Of a stretch of DNA of 64,000 nt, positions 4,176 through 64,000 are shown piece by piece. Both the position numbers and the translations under genes were made by a program. The notes below the pieces were generated by a model. That model ran no database searches. It was not told the DNA's origin and saw nothing but the letters and a program-made list of their open reading frames with translations. Where the stretch lies: positions 1 to 64,000 of the forward strand of contig NZ_ANBB01000061.1 in NCBI RefSeq assembly GCF_000341105.1, given 5' to 3'. The number at the start of each line of letters is the position of its first letter. Position 1 is the first letter of the stretch. This DNA comes from Nocardiopsis potens DSM 45234 (GTDB lineage: Bacteria; Actinomycetota; Actinomycetes; Streptosporangiales; Streptosporangiaceae).

Positions 4176-6383
4176 TCACTGCACCGGCCAGAGGGAGATG
4201 TGCCCGGCTCCTTCCGCGGGGGGCTCGCCGCCGTCCCCGTCCAGGGACTCCTGCTCGTAGCAGGAGCCGATGGGCTGTCCGGGCTCCCGCCCGCCCACGG
4301 GGACCCAGCCGCAGGTCCAGCCGTCGTATTCACCGAACCCGCCGCTGCCCTGAAGCCGGTCGGGCGGCAGTGCGAAGTAGCCCTCCAGGACCTCGACGGC
4401 CTGCTCGCAGGTGATGCCGGGGGTGGTGGGCTCGACGATGACCTCGCCCGAAGCCCGGTCCGCCACCGGGGAGTCCTCGCAGCGCCCTGCGACGATCTCC
4501 GAGGGTTCCGGGAGGTCCACCTCGACGGGGGCGTTGAAGTCGGAGAACACCGTCTCAGTGGTGTTCTCGCCGCCGGACTCCCCCGCGTCGTAGGAGGACT
4601 CCAGGCGCAGCGGCAGCCCCTCCTCGTCGAGCCAGACGTCGAAGGAGGCCGGATACTCGGTCTCCTCCCCGGACGGGTAAGAGGTGACGGTGACCGTGTA
4701 GTCGCCGCTGTAGTGCGCCGCGGGTTCACCGTCCGGTCCGGTCTCCTCCTCGTGCTCGCGCAGCTCGCCGGAGTCGGCCATCCGCCGCAGCTCCTCGGCC
4801 ACCCACTGGGCGGAGAACTCCTCCTCCGAGTAGAGCGGGACGTCGGTGCCCGGAGGCCGGCGGCTCCAGGTGCCGTCGAACAGGTAGACGGGGCCGTCGG
4901 CGTCGCGCGCGACCGAGGTGACGCCGACGTCCGCCGTCTCGTCGGTGCGCAGGTAGCCGATGGCCGGCTCGGCGCTGAACTCGTGCCGGACGACGCTGGT
5001 GTAGGGCTCCTGCCCCGGCATCTCGGTCCGGAAGGTGGTCTCGGCGCGGAAGCTCTGCGCCTCCGCGGCCAGATCGGCCGCCTGCACCACCGCCTCCTGC
5101 GGGGTGAGCGCGGTCAGGGCGCCGTAGGCCGCGACGCCGCCGACGCCCGCCGCACCGGCGGCGAGCAGGGCGGCGGCCGCGATGCCCGCGGTCTTCAGCC
5201 CGCCGGCCACGCCCCCGGCAGCGGCGGCGCCGCCCACCGCGGAGGACACGGCGCCACCCGCCGCCGCACCGCCCGCCATGCCGCCCGCCGCCGAACCGCC
5301 CGCCATGCCGCCCGCCGTGCCTGCGGCGCCGCCGGCCAGCACCGTCCCACCGACCGCGCCCAGCACCGGGGCGGCCGCCAGCCACAGCTCGGGCCGGTGC
5401 CAGGGGGCGTCGAACCCGCTCCACCCGGTACGCAGCAGGGCGCCGAGGCGGCCGCGGGGATCCTGCTCCGCAGGGAGTTCCCGGGTCTCCGGCGCCTCGG
5501 GGGCGGCCGACAGGGGGCCGCCCGGAGCGGTCCCGGCGGCCGGGGCGGTGCGGGCGAGCACCGCGCGGAACGCCTCCTCGGCCGACGGCCGCGCGCTGGG
5601 ATCGCGGTCGAGGGCCGCGGCCACCAAGGGCAGCAGGCCCTCCGGAACACCTGCGACGTCGGGGGCCTCCTCGCGGGTGCGGCGGAGGAGTTCCTCCGGC
5701 TCGCCCCGCCCGTACGGGGGCCGCCCCGTGGCGGCGAACGCCACCAGGCCTCCCCAGGCGAAGACGTCGTCGGCCGGGACGGGATCGCGGCCCGCGATGC
5801 GCCCCGGACTCATCCAGCCGGGGGAGCCGAAGACCCCGTCGTCCCGGGACGCGGCGACGGGGCGGGCGATCCCGAAGTCGAGCAGGCGGGGGCCGTCCGG
5901 GGCGAGCATCACGTTGGCGGGCTTGACGTCGCAGTGCACCACTCCTGCGGCGTGCACCGCGGCGAGCGCCTCGGCGGTGCCCGCGGCGAAGGCGTGCAGC
6001 ACCTCGCCGCCGAGCGGCCCGTGCTCGCGCACGTACCGGGCGAGAGTGCGGCCGGGAACGAAGCCGGTCGCCACCCACGGCCGCCCGGCCCCGGGGTCCG
6101 CATCCAGTACAGGGGCGGTGCACATCCCGCCGACCCGCCGCATCAGCTCCACCTCGCGGGCGAACGCGGAGCGGAAGCGCCGGTCGGCGGCGAAGCGCTC
6201 GTGCACCACCTTGACCGCGATGCACCGCCCCGCGCCGTCGAGCGCGCCGTAGACGGCGCCCATGCCTCCCGCCCCCAGCCGACCGACCAGCCGGAAGGGG
6301 CCGATGGTCTCGGGGTCGCCCGGCCCGAGGGGGGCGAGCTCCGGGGGAAGCCGCCTCGGGGCGGCAGAGCCCATGTTCGTCAT
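4176..6383 (-). CDS. Membrane Ser/Thr protein kinase with lipoprotein-like extracellular domain
   Basis: Three in-frame ATGs lie at 6392, 6383 and 6374. AGGGGAG sits about 10 nt before the second, so 6383 is chosen (735 aa). Residues 30-290 are a Hanks-type kinase: glycine loop GRLGAGGMG (36-42), Lys58, Glu79, HCDVKPANV (150-158), DFG (169-171). The catalytic loop is HCD rather than HRD, and the activation segment ends SPG rather than APE, so activation may not follow the usual RD route. A Pro/Ala linker and a Gly/Ala/Met repeat region lead to a hydrophobic membrane segment near residues 430-455. The outer domain (to residue 735) resembles LppX/LprG-like or DUF lipoproteins with many short beta strands. 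It may sense an envelope ligand. It follows the MFS gene by 77 bp and could share its transcript. Confidence 0.88.
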   Translation of the reverse strand: MTNMGSAAPRRLPPELAPLGPGDPETIGPFRLVGRLGAGGMGAVYGALDGAGRCIAVKVVHERFAADRRFRSAFAREVELMRRVGGMCTAPVLDADPGAGRPWVATGFVPGRTLARYVREHGPLGGEVLHAFAAGTAEALAAVHAAGVVHCDVKPANVMLAPDGPRLLDFGIARPVAASRDDGVFGSPGWMSPGRIAGRDPVPADDVFAWGGLVAFAATGRPPYGRGEPEELLRRTREEAPDVAGVPEGLLPLVAAALDRDPSARPSAEEAFRAVLARTAPAAGTAPGGPLSAAPEAPETRELPAEQDPRGRLGALLRTGWSGFDAPWHRPELWLAAAPVLGAVGGTVLAGGAAGTAGGMAGGSAAGGMAGGAAAGGAVSSAVGGAAAAGGVAGGLKTAGIAAAALLAAGAAGVGGVAAYGALTALTPQEAVVQAADLAAEAQSFRAETTFRTEMPGQEPYTSVVRHEFSAEPAIGYLRTDETADVGVTSVARDADGPVYLFDGTWSRRPPGTDVPLYSEEEFSAQWVAEELRRMADSGELREHEEETGPDGEPAAHYSGDYTVTVTSYPSGEETEYPASFDVWLDEEGLPLRLESSYDAGESGGENTTETVFSDFNAPVEVDLPEPSEIVAGRCEDSPVADRASGEVIVEPTTPGITCEQAVEVLEGYFALPPDRLQGSGGFGEYDGWTCGWVPVGGREPGQPIGSCYEQESLDGDGGEPPAEGAGHISLWPVQ

Positions 6384-6460
6384 GGGCGCCATGCTCCCCT
6401 GGATCGGTCGTCGGCGCGACTCCGGAGGGCCCGTCCCCGGGGCCGCCGGGCGTTCCCGGG

Positions 6461-7882
6461 TCAGGACGGGGAGTCGTGTTCGGCCGGGGCGGGGGCCGGG
6501 GCGGGGGCACGCAGGGCCGCCGCGATCGCCACCGCGGCGAGGCAGAGCACGGCGCAGCCCGCCCAGATCGCGATGTAGCCGCCCTCGCGGGGGACGTCGG
6601 GGGCGCCCGGGAGGGCCATCCGGTTGAGCACCGTGCCGAAGACCGCGCCCGCGATGCCGCCGGCCAGCGCCTTCAGTGTGTTGTACACGCCGGTGGCGGC
6701 GGCGGTGCGGTCCGCCGGGGTGCGGCGGATGATGAACAGCGGGATGGCGCTCATCGCCAGGCCCACCCCCAGGCCGTTGGCGAGCAGCCCGGCCCCGAAC
6801 TGCCAGGGGTGGCCGTGCAGCAGCGCGATCGCGGCGTAGCCGGCCGCGGAGAGCGCGAACCCGCCGGCCAGCACCGCGCGTTCGCCGAGCAGCCGCGCGG
6901 CCCGGTCCGCCGCCAGCCCGCCGACCAGGATGCCCAGCGCCGAGCACATGCTCACCGCGGAGACGCCCAGGGTGTCCAGGCCCCAGCCGTAGCCGTGCGC
7001 CGGGTCGGTGGCGGCGAAGGTCGGGGCGGAGGTCAGCGACCCGTAGAGGGAGAGCCCCAGCATCATGCTGAGCCAGTACACCGGCGCCAGCGTCCTGCCG
7101 CTCATCACCCGGACGTCGATCAGCGGGTCGGCGATGCGCGCCTCGTAGCGGACGAACAGGACCAGCAGCACCGCCCCGGCCAGCAGCTCGGCGCCGGCCC
7201 GGCCGGGCGAGGAGGCGAGCGCGGCGATCCCGTCGAACGCCAGCCCGAGGCCCAGGGCGACCAGCATGCCGCCGACCCAGTCCACCCGGCCGCGGGAGCG
7301 CACCTCCGACTCCGGGATCAGGAACAGGCTGACCAGCAGGCAGGCGGCGAGCAGGGCGACCAGCACCCACAGCGACACCCGGACCGAGGAGGCCGCGTCG
7401 TCGATCAGGCCGACCGCGAGCGCCCCGAAGGACACGCCGACGGACAGCGCCCCGACGAGCAGGCCGATGGCGGGGCCGGCGCGCTCGGTGCCGAGCCGGT
7501 CCCGGACGATGGCGAACTCCAGCGGCAGCCAGCAGGCCAGCGCGCCGGAGAGGATCCGGCCGAGGATCAGCAGGGCGAAGCCGTCCGCCATCGCCACCAG
7601 CGCGTAGCCGGCCAGCGTGACGACGACGGTAATCTGGATCAGCCTCCGGTGCCCGAAGACGTCGCCGAGCCGGGCGAGCAGCGGCAGGGCGAGGCCCGAG
7701 GCGAGGAGCTCCACGGAGAACGCGGTGCTCAGGTCCCCCGGCCCCAGCCCGAGCTCGGCGCCGATGGCCGGGAGCAGCACCGGGAACCCTCCCTGGAGGA
7801 CTCCGCTGCACAGCTCGATGAAGACGAGGAAGCCGACGAAGGCGGCCGACCGGCGGCCGGCCGCCGGTGTGGAACCGGGCAT
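6461..7882 (-). CDS. MFS drug exporter, DHA2-like, 14 membrane segments
   Basis: 473 aa starting ATG (MPGSTPAAGRR). Hydrophobic helices run from about residue 12 to the end, with the MFS signature region ARLGDVFGHRR near residues 70-80 and the central extra helix pair typical of 14-helix DHA2 proton antiporters. The tail is Ala/Pro-rich. It is divergent from the two-unit Lrp/AsnC regulator, with a 155-bp shared promoter region carrying repeated dyads, so regulation by that protein is likely. The substrate cannot be predicted; a small drug or metabolite is typical for the family. Confidence 0.9.
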   Translation of the reverse strand: MPGSTPAAGRRSAAFVGFLVFIELCSGVLQGGFPVLLPAIGAELGLGPGDLSTAFSVELLASGLALPLLARLGDVFGHRRLIQITVVVTLAGYALVAMADGFALLILGRILSGALACWLPLEFAIVRDRLGTERAGPAIGLLVGALSVGVSFGALAVGLIDDAASSVRVSLWVLVALLAACLLVSLFLIPESEVRSRGRVDWVGGMLVALGLGLAFDGIAALASSPGRAGAELLAGAVLLVLFVRYEARIADPLIDVRVMSGRTLAPVYWLSMMLGLSLYGSLTSAPTFAATDPAHGYGWGLDTLGVSAVSMCSALGILVGGLAADRAARLLGERAVLAGGFALSAAGYAAIALLHGHPWQFGAGLLANGLGVGLAMSAIPLFIIRRTPADRTAAATGVYNTLKALAGGIAGAVFGTVLNRMALPGAPDVPREGGYIAIWAGCAVLCLAAVAIAAALRAPAPAPAPAEHDSPS

Positions 7883-9065: not shown

Positions 9066-9700
9066 GGCGATGATCTTGACGTTGTCTCCGTCTCAGACCC
9101 CTTGTCGTCAAGTGGCCGTTGCAACGGGGAACTCGGGGAGGGGCGAGGGACGGAAGGTGCCCCGACCGGGCGCGGCATCTCGCGGAGCGAAGGTCCGAGC
9201 GGGCGGCCACGGCGGGAGGGCAGCGAAGGCAGGAGGGCGTGCCGGCCGGTCGGTCGGGCGCGGCGTCTCGCGGAGTGAAGGTTCAAGCGGCGGCGACGGC
9301 GAAGGCAGGGCGGGGCGCAGGCGATCGCCCGGGCGCGGCGCCCCACGGGGTGAAGGTTAAGGCGGGCAGCGAGGGCGGGAGAGGGGACCGGCCGGTCGGT
9401 CCGGCGCGGCGTCTCGCGGAGTGAAGGTTAAGGCGGGCAGCGAGGGCGGGAGAGGGGACCGGCCGGTCGGTCCGGCGCGGCGCCCCACAGAGCGAAGGTC
9501 AAGACCAGCGGCGACGGCACAGGCAGGGGCGGGGTCCGGCGCCTCACCCGGGCGCTGCGTCTCACGGGGCCGGGGTTCAAACGGGCGGCGAGGGCGAGAG
9601 GGGGACCGGCTGGTCGGTCGGGCGCGGCGCCCCGCAGAGCGAAGGTCAAAGCGGGCAGCGAGGGTGGGAGTCGGGCGGGGCGGCACCGGTGAAGGGGGCG
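9066..9700 (+). repeat. Forward array of repeat module copy 1 (about seven 69-88-bp units)
   Basis: The block opens with a border sequence (GATGATCTTGACGTTGTC, 9069 region) and continues as imperfect units, each containing GGGCGCGGCG, then TCTCGCGGAG or CCCCACGGGG, then TGAAGGTT/CGAAGGTC. Unit landmarks are near 9167, 9255, 9330, 9401, 9472, 9549 and 9618, so spacing is 88, 75, 71, 71, 77 and 69 bp. Two spacer types tend to alternate: one rich in CCGGCCGGTCGGTC, the other GCAGGCGATCGCCCG. All reading frames through it are Arg/Gly/Ala low-complexity, so I do not call genes. The same arrangement recurs at 48.6-49.1 kb. Confidence 0.85.
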
Positions 9701-10165
9701 GGCCGCTCGCCCGGGCCCACCAGGGGGCCTTATCCCTGTATGCCTGGTTCGCGGCGGGGACCGGGCAGGGGCGGGAGTGCCCTGCGCACCGCGAGAGCAC
9801 CCCGATTACATCTACCAGCGAGTAGTAAGCCCCCAGGCCCCCACCACCCCCTCACCGATCACCCAGAGTGGCCAAGGCGGACCCTCCCTGCAGGGCAAAA
9901 GCGACATCTCGCCTTCGTGCCGCCCCTGCCCGGGTTCCGGCCCCCTGCTTTGCGGCCTTGCGGGCGGCTCGAACCCCCGAACACCGGCCCGATCAGGGCC
10001 AATCGGGCCTCCCGGGGCCCGATCCCGCCCAGGGTGCGCGCCCGGGAATCACCGGGGTGCTCTCGCGGTGCGCAGGGCACCCCTCTCCGCCATCACCTTG
10101 CGTATTCGTCCAGGTCGGGGAGGTGCAGTGGTTTCATGGGTAGCCGGCCCCGGCGTCTGGGATGA
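9701..10165. repeat. Conserved core of repeat module copy 1
   Basis: About 465 bp closely similar to 49158-49615. A perfect 25-bp inverted repeat (9779-9803 and 10054-10078, word CTGCGCACCGCGAGAGCACC) encloses about 250 bp. Just inside the left arm lies GATTACATCTACCAGCGAGT (9804 onward), a small dyad with CTAC and GTAG arms. To the right of the arm the minus strand reads MKPLHLPDLDEYAR followed by a stop. The second copy preserves LHL-x-DLDEYA, which may be the relic of a coding end. It could specify a structured RNA or be a mobile or chromosome-organising element; function unknown. Confidence 0.8.
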
Positions 10166-10199
10166 CGCGGGAACGGCGAACCCGCCCTCTCTGCCCGCC

Positions 10200-10690
10200 G
10201 CGACCACTCCCGACCTGCTCTGCCGCGCCCGACCGACCGGCCGGTCCCCTCCACCGCCCTCGTCGCCCGCTTGAACCCTCACCCTGCGAGACGCCGCGCC
10301 CGGGCGACGCCTGCACCCGGCCCCTGCCTCTGCCGTCGCCGCCCGTCTTGACCTTCGCTCCGCGAGGCGCCGCGCCCGGCCGGGGCACCCGCCCCTGCCC
10401 CTTCCTCCGCCGTCGGCTTGAGCCGTCACCCCGTGGGGCGTCGCACCCGACCGACCGGCCGGTTCCCCTCCCGCCATCGCCGCCAGCTTGAACCCCCGCC
10501 CCGCGAGGCGCCGCGCCCGGGTGAGGCGCCCGCCCCGCCCCTGCCTTCGCCGTCGCCGCCCGTCTTGACCTTCGTTCTGCGGGGCGCCGCGCTCGGCCGA
10601 GTGGCCGGTCCCCGCCCGTCCTCTGGCGGGCGGTATTGCAGCGGACGCTGGAGACCGTCGGCTTTGAGACGGCGACAACGTCAAGACCAT
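10200..10690 (-). repeat. Reverse array of repeat module copy 1
   Basis: The same units as the forward array but inverted (landmarks TTGAACCCTCACC, TTGACCTTCGCTCCGCG, and so on, near 10272, 10348, 10418, 10489 and 10564; a partial unit near 10210). The array ends at 10625-10690 with the reverse complement of a border sequence very like that at 9069: read on the minus strand it starts GATGGTCTTGACGTTGTC. The two borders make the whole 1.6-kb module an interrupted inverted repeat. Confidence 0.8.
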
Positions 10691-10720
10691 CGGGGAGAGG
10701 CGGGGAGGAGCGGGGCCGGG

Positions 10721-48589: not shown

Positions 48590-49150
48590 GGTTCACCCAA
48601 GCAGCAGCGACGGAAGGGGGCGGCCGGCCGGCCGGTTGGGCGCGGCGCCCCGCGGGGCCGGGGTTCAGGCCGGCGGCGAAGGCGTCGGTGGGCACCGGCC
48701 GGTCGGTCCAGCGCGGCACCTCACGGAGCGAAGGTCAAGACCGGCAGCGGCGGCGGGAGAGGGACCGGCCGGTCGGTTGGGCACGGCGCCCCGCGGAGTA
48801 CAGGTCAAGACAGGCGGCGACGGCAAGGGTAGGGCCGGGGCGCAGACCTCGCCCGGGCGCGGCGCCTCACGGGGTGACGGTTCAAACCGGCAGCGACGGC
48901 GAAGGCAGGGGCGGGGCGCAGGCGGTCGCCCGGGCGCGGCGCCCCACGGAGCGAAGGTCCAAGCGGGCAGCGAAGGCGAGGAGTGGAGACCGGCCAGTCG
49001 GTCGGGTGCGGCGTCTCGCGGAGTGCAGGTCCAGACGGGCGGCGACGGCAGCGGTAGGGGCGGGGCGAGGGTGGTCGCCCGGGCGCGGCGCCCCGCAGGG
49101 CGGGGGTTCAAGCAGGCGGCGAAGGCGGGAGCGGAGTGGTGCCCCGGCGC
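48590..49150 (+). repeat. Forward array of repeat module copy 2 (about seven units)
   Basis: Units with the GGGCGCGGCGCC, CGGAG or CGGGG and GAAGGTC/GGGGTTC landmarks near 48635, 48705, 48775, 48853, 48929, 49002 and 49079 (spacing 70-78 bp). The GGCCGGTCGGTC and GGTCGCCCGGGC spacer types recur as in copy 1. It begins directly after the sugar operon; the border word of copy 1 (GATGATCTTGACG) is not seen here. Confidence 0.85.
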
Positions 49151-49157
49151 AGGGAGC

Positions 49158-49615
49158 CGGCCCGCTTGCCCGGGCCCGCCAGGGGGTCTTATCCCTATAT
49201 GCCTGGTTTGCGGCGGGGATCGGGCGGGAGCGGGGGCGCCCTGCGCGCCGCGAGAGCACCCCGATTACATCTACCAGCGAGTAGTAAGCCCCCAAGCCCC
49301 CACCATCCCCTCACCGATCACCCAGAGTGGCCAAAGCGGGTCCTTCCAGGAGAGCAAAAGCGACATCTCGCCCTCGCGCCATCCCTCCCCGGGTTCCGGC
49401 CCCCTGCTTCCCGGCCTTGCGGGCGGCTCGAACCCCCGAACACCGGCCCGACCGGGGCGATTCGGGCCTCTCGGGGGCCGATCCGGGCCGGGATGCGCGC
49501 CCGGGAATCACCGAGGTGCTCTCGCGGTGCGCAGGGCGCCCCACCCCACCATCACCCTGCGTATTCATCCAGGTCAAAGAGGTGTAGCGATTTCAGAGGC
49601 GGTCGGCCCCGGCGC
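49158..49615. repeat. Conserved core of repeat module copy 2
   Basis: Aligns along its length with 9701-10165, including CTTATCCCTATATGCCTGGT, GATTACATCTACCAGCGAGT (49263 onward) and GAACCCCCGAACACCGGCCC. The bounding inverted repeat (49238-49262 with 49513-49537) has two changes from perfect. One is a G facing T, which would still pair as G-U in RNA. The minus strand again ends in LHLFDLDEYAG and a stop. Confidence 0.8.
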
Positions 49616-49659
49616 CCGGGCGACACGGAAACGGCGAACCCGCCACCCCGGCCCGCCCC

Positions 49660-50245
49660 GACCGCCCCACCCCGCTCTGCCGCACCCGACCGACCAGCCG
49701 GTTCCCCTGCCCGCCGTCGCCGCCCGCTTGAACCCTCACCCCGTGGGGCCCGTGCCCGGGCGACCGCCTCCACCACGCCCCTGCCGCTGCCGTCGCCGCT
49801 GCTTGAACCTTCGCTTCACGGAGCGCCGCGCCCGACCGACCGGCCGGTGTCCACCGCTGCCCTCGCTGCCCGTTTGAGCCCCCGCCCCGTGAGGCACCGC
49901 GCCCGGCCAGGGCGCCCGACCGCGCCCCTGCCTACGCCGTCGCCGCCGGTCTGAACCTTCGCTCCGCGAGACGCCGCACCCGACCGACCAGCCGGTGCCC
50001 ACCGCCGCCGTCGCCGCCCGCTTGAACCCTCACCCCGTGGGGCCCGCACCCGACCGACCAGCCGGTCCCCACCGCCGCCGTCGCCGCCGGTCTGAACCTT
50101 CGCTCCGTGAGGCGCCGCGCCCGGGCGACCGCCTTCGCCCCGCCCCTGCCTGCGCCGTCGCCGCCCGCTTGAACCCTGGCCCCGTGGGGCGCCGCGCTCG
50201 AGTGGGGGCTCCCGCTCTTCTCCCCTTCCCCTCTTTCCTCTTGCG
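49660..50245 (-). repeat. Reverse array of repeat module copy 2
   Basis: Inverted units near 49678 (partial), 49730, 49803, 49874, 49950, 50020, 50092 and 50168, spacing 70-76 bp. It ends about 40 bp before the stop of the LAL regulator gene. All frames are Arg/Pro-rich low complexity. Confidence 0.83.
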
Positions 50246-53254: not shown

Positions 53255-53961
53255 ACGTCCTCCGTGTCCGTCCGAGGCGTTCCACGATTACCTGGGGTTA
53301 AATGGGCTGGGCGAATCGACTCTACCCACACGTGTCGAAGCGGCGGCGGATATGAATTGGCGGGTGAATGCGGGGGCGGCGCCGAACGGAGCGCACCAAG
53401 AGGGAGAATGCGGATCCGTGTCCGAGCGGTCACCGAACGTGCGTTCATGGCCGCTTTCGGTCGTGTGGCTTCGGTCACATCTACTGTAGAGTCGCCACCG
53501 AACCCTCACCACACCGGCCCCACCGCGTCAAGTTCTCCCTCCCGCACCGGGTTCCGGGCGACCGATCGGCACCGGGACCCGCTCTCCGGACACCACCCCG
53601 CCCGGTGTTCCACCCCCACACCCCGATCCGCACCGCGGAAAACGACACCCCCTATTCCCCGGCCCCGGATAGGGGTGCCTGAGGGGTTGCCCCCGAAGCC
53701 GACAGGTCACGCGGGAAGCCGCTGGTTAGGGGTTGTCCGGCCGCCCCCGACTCCGTAGCGTCCGGTGGCGGCGATAACGGAATGGCGCGCCCCCGACCCC
53801 GAGGCCGGAGGCGCCCCTCCGAAGGCGGAGAAACACCGGAGCGAACAATTCCTTTCGAAATGAATAAGGAATACCCCGGCGCGGAACCGCGGACCGGCGG
53901 GCGCGAATTCCGCGAATCGCCGAACTGCGTCCCGAGCGGATCGATGGGGGTCTGGAAAGCG
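53255..53961. promoter_or_regulatory. Regulator/PKS divergent region with hairpin
   Basis: 707 bp without a credible gene. At 53646-53677, CACCCCCTAT and ATAGGGGTG form a 9-bp stem (one bulged C) around a CCCCGGCCCCGG loop. CTACTGTAG near 53483 is a small dyad. Both PKS and regulator promoters should lie here; I could not fix a -10/-35 pair with confidence. Confidence 0.45.

Positions 53962-64000
<10,039 letters not shown>

Follow-up and report, generated by a model that had tools for sequence, protein, structure and literature searches.

The Foldback and Galileo transposons of eukaryotes carry long inverted terminal repeats that are themselves built of tandem subrepeats and that enclose a middle domain. 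Among bacterial repeats, the BOX elements have a modular boxA-boxB-boxC anatomy; they are much smaller than the repeat described below and, unlike it, have no core set between opposed arrays. BrickBuilt, a MITE of Porphyromonas gingivalis that contains a minisatellite, was reported to be present in 19 copies in ATCC 33277, with one array of 23-nt tandem units that sits between a leader and a tail, and the same account gives 50-1000 bp as the usual size of bacterial MITEs (PMC4596501).

The window analysed here is a stretch of 64,000 nucleotides from Nocardiopsis potens DSM 45234 (genome G000; assembly GCF_000341105.1, contig NZ_ANBB01000061.1, positions 1 to 64,000), which was compared with a sister species of the same genus (genome G004). 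Two modules made of an array, a core and an inverted array were confirmed in the window, at 9127-10617 and 48622-50201. A preliminary description of this DNA had given the layout as a forward array, a core and an inverted array, which is real at both sites; the core that it placed at about 460 bp exists as well, but its length by profile is nearer 520 bp (9706-10233 and 49164-49690). The features of the two copies are as follows.

9069..9097, + strand: copy 1, left half of a small palindromic repeat (hairpin arm of the GATGATCTTGACGTTG type), from the sequence; the copy is classed as split, that is, with the left arm outside the left array and the right arm outside the right array.
9097..9150, + strand: copy 1, terminal segment T1, profile match from 9097, common to other copies; end approximate.
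9127..9690, + strand: copy 1, forward array of seven 70-77-bp units directed towards the core, from unit search and profile.
9706..10233, + strand: copy 1, conserved core, from profile.
10222..10617, - strand: copy 1, inverted array of the same units directed towards the core, from unit search and profile.
10618..10660, - strand: copy 1, terminal segment T2, profile match ending at 10657; start approximate.
10665..10691, - strand: copy 1, right half of the small palindromic repeat, from the sequence; split class.
48622..49144, + strand: copy 2, forward array of seven units, from unit search and profile.
49164..49690, + strand: copy 2, core, from profile.
49641..50201, - strand: copy 2, inverted array, seven units by profile, from unit search and profile.

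The half-arms of copy 1 (about 9069-9097 and 10665-10691), which had not been separated before, are inverted-complementary at 26 of 28 bases, and its core contains an internal inverted repeat of 31 bp (9774-9804 and 10053-10083; self matches, 97%). No recognisable hairpin arms were found at copy 2 (~48.6 kb). Most array units follow one another at intervals of 76-77 or 70-71 bp and their orientation is strict, as around 105 distinct cores in the examined stretches (113 core records before duplicates were removed) none of 1021 units points outward and all point inward, whichever way the core lies. The sense strand of the units is G-rich, with a skew of +0.30 (sd 0.07, 889 unit records) against -0.01 for coding sense, and since the arrays face inward, two converging transcripts would both enter the units in the same G-rich sense. 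In the examined stretches the arrays are accompanied by a core, the exceptions being one interrupted copy in the sister species and one core-less remnant in N. potens (L270). The anatomy was read directly: tandem subrepeats form an inverted array at either end, a middle domain lies between the two arrays, and this is the foldback arrangement.

The outer ends of the element carry soft labels, as 19 of the 36 T1 matches overlap a T2 match. By best-scoring profile in N. potens, T1 lies to the left of the core in 9 copies and to the right in 6 (one of these outward), and T2 to the left in 8 and to the right in 11, which suggests, within the softness of these labels, that core orientation is not fixed relative to the T1 and T2 ends. 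Recent copies in the sister species are without fixed ends, their arrays breaking off at different phases, which is unusual for a transposon. A third type of end segment (...GCCGGGTATGCGGTCGACTC...), unlike T1 and T2, was seen in both genomes at the outer ends of L146, L131, L126 and L197.

When 3 mismatches were allowed, a motif of 26 nt from the core was found at 61 + 64 = 125 places in N. potens, the reversed-motif control giving 0 + 0. A profile of 177 positions found 128 copies there, whereas the four other congeners, with 150 candidates scored per genome, had none. The two copies reported in the preliminary description are therefore both present, but are 2 of about 125-128 in the genome, and its worry that the genome might hold no further copies is excluded by the ~125 found. 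At ~1.6 kb per copy, some 125 copies come by arithmetic to about 3% of a genome of 6.9 Mb. Identity to the core of the window copy is 84-100% among its 40 best matches, and the median core identity within N. potens is 83-86%. In the sister species the same core profile gave at least 58 copies, probably a lower bound (150 candidates scored), while 800 contiguous kb of that genome held 9 copies, which scales to ~80 per genome.

Copy number and the restriction of the family, within the set of genomes searched, to two sister species are direct observations: a degenerate motif was present in 2 of 341 family genomes, these being N. potens and its sister species. Under stricter filters, a profile scan of 200 genomes with 13 candidates scored per genome gave one weak match in each of two further members of the family (E 4e-4 and 8e-4); no unit, core or hairpin match accompanied them, and they were taken as chance. 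Genome and viral contigs scanned for exact occurrences had no match, in a collection from which near genomes were possibly left out. The plasmids and phages searched gave no match, and a plasmid or phage origin was rejected on these searches. No description of a repeat family with this anatomy was recognised among the open-access PMC papers listed.

High GC allows frame +0 to be stop-free in 59% of the 109 core records with the motif (110 longer core records examined, repeats included), but no reading frame is kept through indels in the 101-copy core alignment, where a length divisible by three was found for only 9 of 306 internal gaps; a protein-coding core was rejected on these indels. The statement that the modules do not match insertion sequences holds, as the cores are non-coding and encode no transposase of their own. 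In the interrupted copy of the sister species (L132), an insert at 5730-7840 holds a transposase-like gene, which we take to be ISL3-like, together with another small gene, and part of the transposase DNA occurs there a second time. The transposase-like gene looks like a later insertion, and an autonomous version of the element was rejected on the same ground, L132 being the only interrupted copy seen and appearing to carry an inserted element, presumably of the ISL3 type. A CRISPR array, already dismissed in the preliminary description, does not fit units that are head-to-tail, diverged, without unique spacers and set in two opposed arrays.

Like MITEs, the family is non-coding, dispersed and present in many copies (125-128). 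Inverted ends of 28 bp are seen at copy 1 (26/28) and arms at 22 of 60 N. potens copies, the partner sought among resident transposons being Y1 only. No partner transposase was found in this search for Y1 (PF01797), which gave 0 matches in N. potens and in the sister species and matches in 5 of 14 control genomes. A REP or REPIN family mobilised by a RAYT was rejected, since the Y1 (RAYT-type) transposase is absent from both carriers. Y1 matches were seen in all four non-carrier congeners (G001, G002, G003 and G005, two of them weak), in a set of six genomes only.

It was also proposed that the module might be a structured RNA locus. Against Rfam no match reached the gathering score, two matches falling far below it (E up to 5), and no convincing covariation was detected in the core and units, the strongest coupled columns being mostly non-Watson-Crick or following the subfamilies, although one short palindrome of the core (columns 338-358) does keep pairing. 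The proposal was not upheld by these results.

The position of the copies, mostly at gene 3' ends, was observed directly with a codon-usage gene caller, by which 60 of 64 N. potens cores had a called gene on both sides and 4 lacked one neighbour. The genes on either side converge at 32 of 60 copies in N. potens, whereas of the 508 other gene pairs from these stretches 79 do so (P 4e-10); they diverge at 4 of 60 copies, compared with 104 of 508 pairs (P 0.008), and are in tandem at 24 of 60. The sister species gave 17 of 40 convergent vs 39 of 258 other pairs (P 2e-4), 0 of 40 divergent vs 56 of 258 (P 3e-4) and 23 of 40 tandem. Relative to tandem genes, core orientation was the same in 16 and opposite in 8 copies in N. 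potens, and the same in 10 and opposite in 13 in the sister species. Of 104 cores, a single one falls within a called gene, and the median intergenic gap in N. potens is 1601 bp with the element vs 120 bp for other gaps.

Spacing was examined for the 99 of 128 N. potens copies that lie on 43 contigs of known length. The copies were over-dispersed, with 2 of 56 gaps below 10 kb vs 13.7 expected, and 0 of 5000 simulations were as low; the rarity of close pairs could reflect target immunity or selection against neighbouring copies that would recombine, and the draft assembly may account for part of it. The 44 known copies of the sister species showed no over-dispersion (3 gaps below 10 kb vs 2.5 expected). 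The suggestion that the module is a chromosome-organising site is thus weakly supported, the over-dispersion in N. potens speaking for it and its absence from the sister species, together with the turnover of sites, speaking against it.

Comparison of sites between the two species led to a second repeat, a palindrome of 62 bp (GATGATCTTGACGTTGCGG...AGAGC|GCTCT...CCGCAACGTCAAGATCATC), which probably acts as a bidirectional terminator. Its arm motif (up to 1 mismatch) occurs at 200 places in N. potens, 79 in the sister species and 0 in the four other congeners, and once each in 3 of 35 other relatives. Sixteen solo hairpins were found in 800 kb of the sister species, 11 of them between convergent genes vs 101 of 604 pairs overall (P 4e-6), a placement of small palindromes at gene 3' ends that is also seen in REPINs. 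In 23 distinct well-formed hairpins the inner pairs vary among C-G, G-C, A-T and T-A and are mostly still complementary, a pairing partly built in, as the 24 well-formed records (23 distinct) were chosen from 45 for complementarity. What appears to be one more palindromic family, a long inverted repeat of the GACGACG... type, lies between genes at L272 (G000 C37:130400-131900) and also near 1992479 in the sister species.

Arms on the large copies (up to 3 mismatches of 16) were classed in N. potens as left and right in 6, left only and on the left in 8, right only and on the right in 6, reversed in 0 and as a whole hairpin beside the element in 2, so that 20 of 60 copies have hairpin halves on the correct outer side. 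By visual reading, at most legible junctions the arm stops at AGAGC, the hairpin centre, and T1 or T2 follows. In the sister species arms were recognisable in 3 of 40 copies, and the link between hairpin and element therefore rests mainly on N. potens.

Seven N. potens sites have flanks within the 800-kb stretch of the sister species, which is without the element at five of them (window copy 1, L184, L189, L216 and L217). At the site of window copy 1 the same two genes (93-94% identical) stand ~100 bp apart with no element, and at L184, L189 and L216 a hairpin is found in place of the element. Neither element nor hairpin is present at the sites of window copy 1 and L217, the latter having 1.8 kb of other sequence between the flank matches. 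The occurrence of hairpins at three of four element-lacking sites has a P of 7e-5, or ~2e-4, calculated by hand, with L217 as the fifth. At L215 the element is present in the sister species too, and window copy 2 gave a one-sided match, with ~25.3-50.2 kb of the window missing there.

That missing segment (25300-50250) contains YcaO and HopA1-domain genes and ends at copy 2, and its neighbours lie ~700 bp apart in the sister species. The modules had been said to flank a thioamitide region, which tells little in a genome with ~125 copies, though copy 2 does lie at the edge of a segment absent from the sister species. Further along the window, the called open frame at 53860-63999 runs off the window end and has a long frame on the other strand as well; this stretch has several matches in the sister species, and they keep the register of internal repeats.

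In the reverse direction, nine element sites of the sister species were looked up in N. potens. Four are occupied (one truncated, two inferred across contig ends), one is a core-less array remnant, one could not be classed and three are without the element: 1919282, with a hairpin instead, 2130390, with 54 bp, and 2137983, with 965 bp of other sequence. The four occupied sites and the fifth with its remnant indicate that part of the family predates the split, and the homologous left junctions of the shared site L197/L126 (visual reading) that some insertions are ancestral. The 16 hairpin sites of the sister species hold in N. potens the element in 3 cases, a hairpin of other inner sequence in 2 and neither, by profile, in 11; among the latter, one looks on inspection like a hairpin in decay and another contains a different insert, of 2.3 kb. 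A comparison of strains for presence, absence and target-site duplication had been proposed in the preliminary description. Sites do differ between the two species in both directions, and no clean duplication was read at the compared sites, where element-lacking positions hold diverged intergenic DNA or a hairpin.

In the part of the core tree that was read (101 copies, 3 of 104 cores being omitted as too short), most N. potens copies cluster, while those of the sister species fall into many subfamilies whose members are nearly identical although their sites are unrelated. The cores of L127 and L129, at unrelated sites in the sister species, are identical, with a full-length alignment of 90.5%, and L142 and L144 are 96% alike over 1.3 kb. 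Between the two species, core identity at nine shared sites is 66-83% (pairwise alignment gives 72-86% for six of these), and at seven of the nine the flanking genes are 86-97% identical. Gene conversion and re-insertion were not separated by the identity of the outer arrays, which was compared for six of seven sites common to both species, with one skipped.

Taken on the sequences compared, the family is probably a non-autonomous, foldback-type composite interspersed repeat, akin to MITE, REPIN and BOX repeats. Its anatomy is that of a foldback element, its behaviour that of a non-autonomous interspersed repeat, and its setting, with hairpins and 3' ends, that of REP-type repeats. Among the earlier guesses a non-autonomous mobile element fits best, given the two-way site differences and the identical or near-identical cores at unrelated sites; movement itself we infer from the comparison of the two genomes. 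Copies at new sites would be made by a trans-acting enzyme, none having been identified here, with the hairpin serving either as a landing site or as a terminal repeat of the large element. Recombination between copies may then replace cores and could flip them through the inverted arrays, and copies may persist at gene 3' ends because they would do least harm there. It is a more speculative and rather unlikely proposal that the whole forms a bacterial foldback system without a dedicated transposase, in which hairpin terminators would be landing sites, inter-copy recombination would refresh and invert the cores, inward G-rich arrays would insulate convergent genes and a second copy would be excluded within ~10 kb.

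In a variant of the mobile-repeat reading, the hairpin arms belong to the large element as its terminal inverted repeats, and solo hairpins of 62 bp are derived from it by internal deletion. That hairpin and element share the same two-species distribution, that an arm found alone never occupies the wrong outer side (8 left, 6 right, 0 reversed) and that, by visual reading, about 7 of 9 copies with both ends legible have arms of the same inner type are consistent with it. However, junctions mostly at the hairpin centre AGAGC|GCTCT equally fit insertion into an existing hairpin, and 37 of 40 elements of the sister species have no recognisable arm, so that we hold this variant to be possible, with perhaps one chance in a few. 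The module could alternatively serve the host, as a bidirectional terminator or insulator at convergent genes or as an array for a nucleoid protein, for which the convergent enrichment and divergent depletion, the strictly inward units with their skew, the spacing in N. potens and the core blocks conserved across diverged subfamilies would argue. Such a role is unlikely, as the element is absent from four congeners, its sites differ between the sister species, the spacing pattern does not recur in the second genome and many copies lie between tandem genes (24/60 and 23/40).

Old, fixed insertions kept alike only through gene conversion, with no present mobility, would explain why shared sites carry non-orthologous cores and why L197 and L126 have homologous left junctions (visual reading). 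Presence and absence in both directions make this account a little more doubtful still than a host function, though loss could explain some of the differences. A structured RNA gene family would draw on the conserved blocks of the core, but with no Rfam match at the gathering score and with coupled columns that are mostly non-Watson-Crick or linked to subfamily it is very improbable. Simple segmental duplication of one locus, which two copies in one window might have suggested, has next to no probability and is already refuted by 125-128 copies at unrelated sites.

The preferred reading, a non-autonomous foldback-type repeat, can be set against the described systems. With ~1.5 kb of non-coding DNA per copy, ~3% of the genome, strictly opposed arrays and fast turnover between sister species, the family falls outside the usual sizes of MITE and REP repeats, and it may offer a test case for the spread of non-coding repeats without a resident RAYT. 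Like Foldback and Galileo, it has inverted arrays of tandem subrepeats flanking a middle domain, a likeness of anatomy; unlike them, it resides in a bacterial host and no related transposase is known here. It may in this sense be the bacterial counterpart of the eukaryotic foldback elements. The small hairpin resembles REPINs in being palindromic with a bias to 3' ends and convergent genes, but differs from REP and REPIN sequences in its 62 bp, in having no visible unpaired GTAG/CGTC end tag and in the lack of Y1 in either carrier (PMC3733652). Like BOX of Streptococcus pneumoniae, which was judged parasitic, the large repeat is dispersed and nearly confined to its species group (PMC3049150). 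Similar to BrickBuilt, it is non-autonomous, intergenic and bacterial, with variable tandem units and no transposase inside, and it departs from BrickBuilt in its two opposed arrays of 70/77-bp units, its ~500-bp core, its ~125 copies and its GC-rich composition (PMC4596501).
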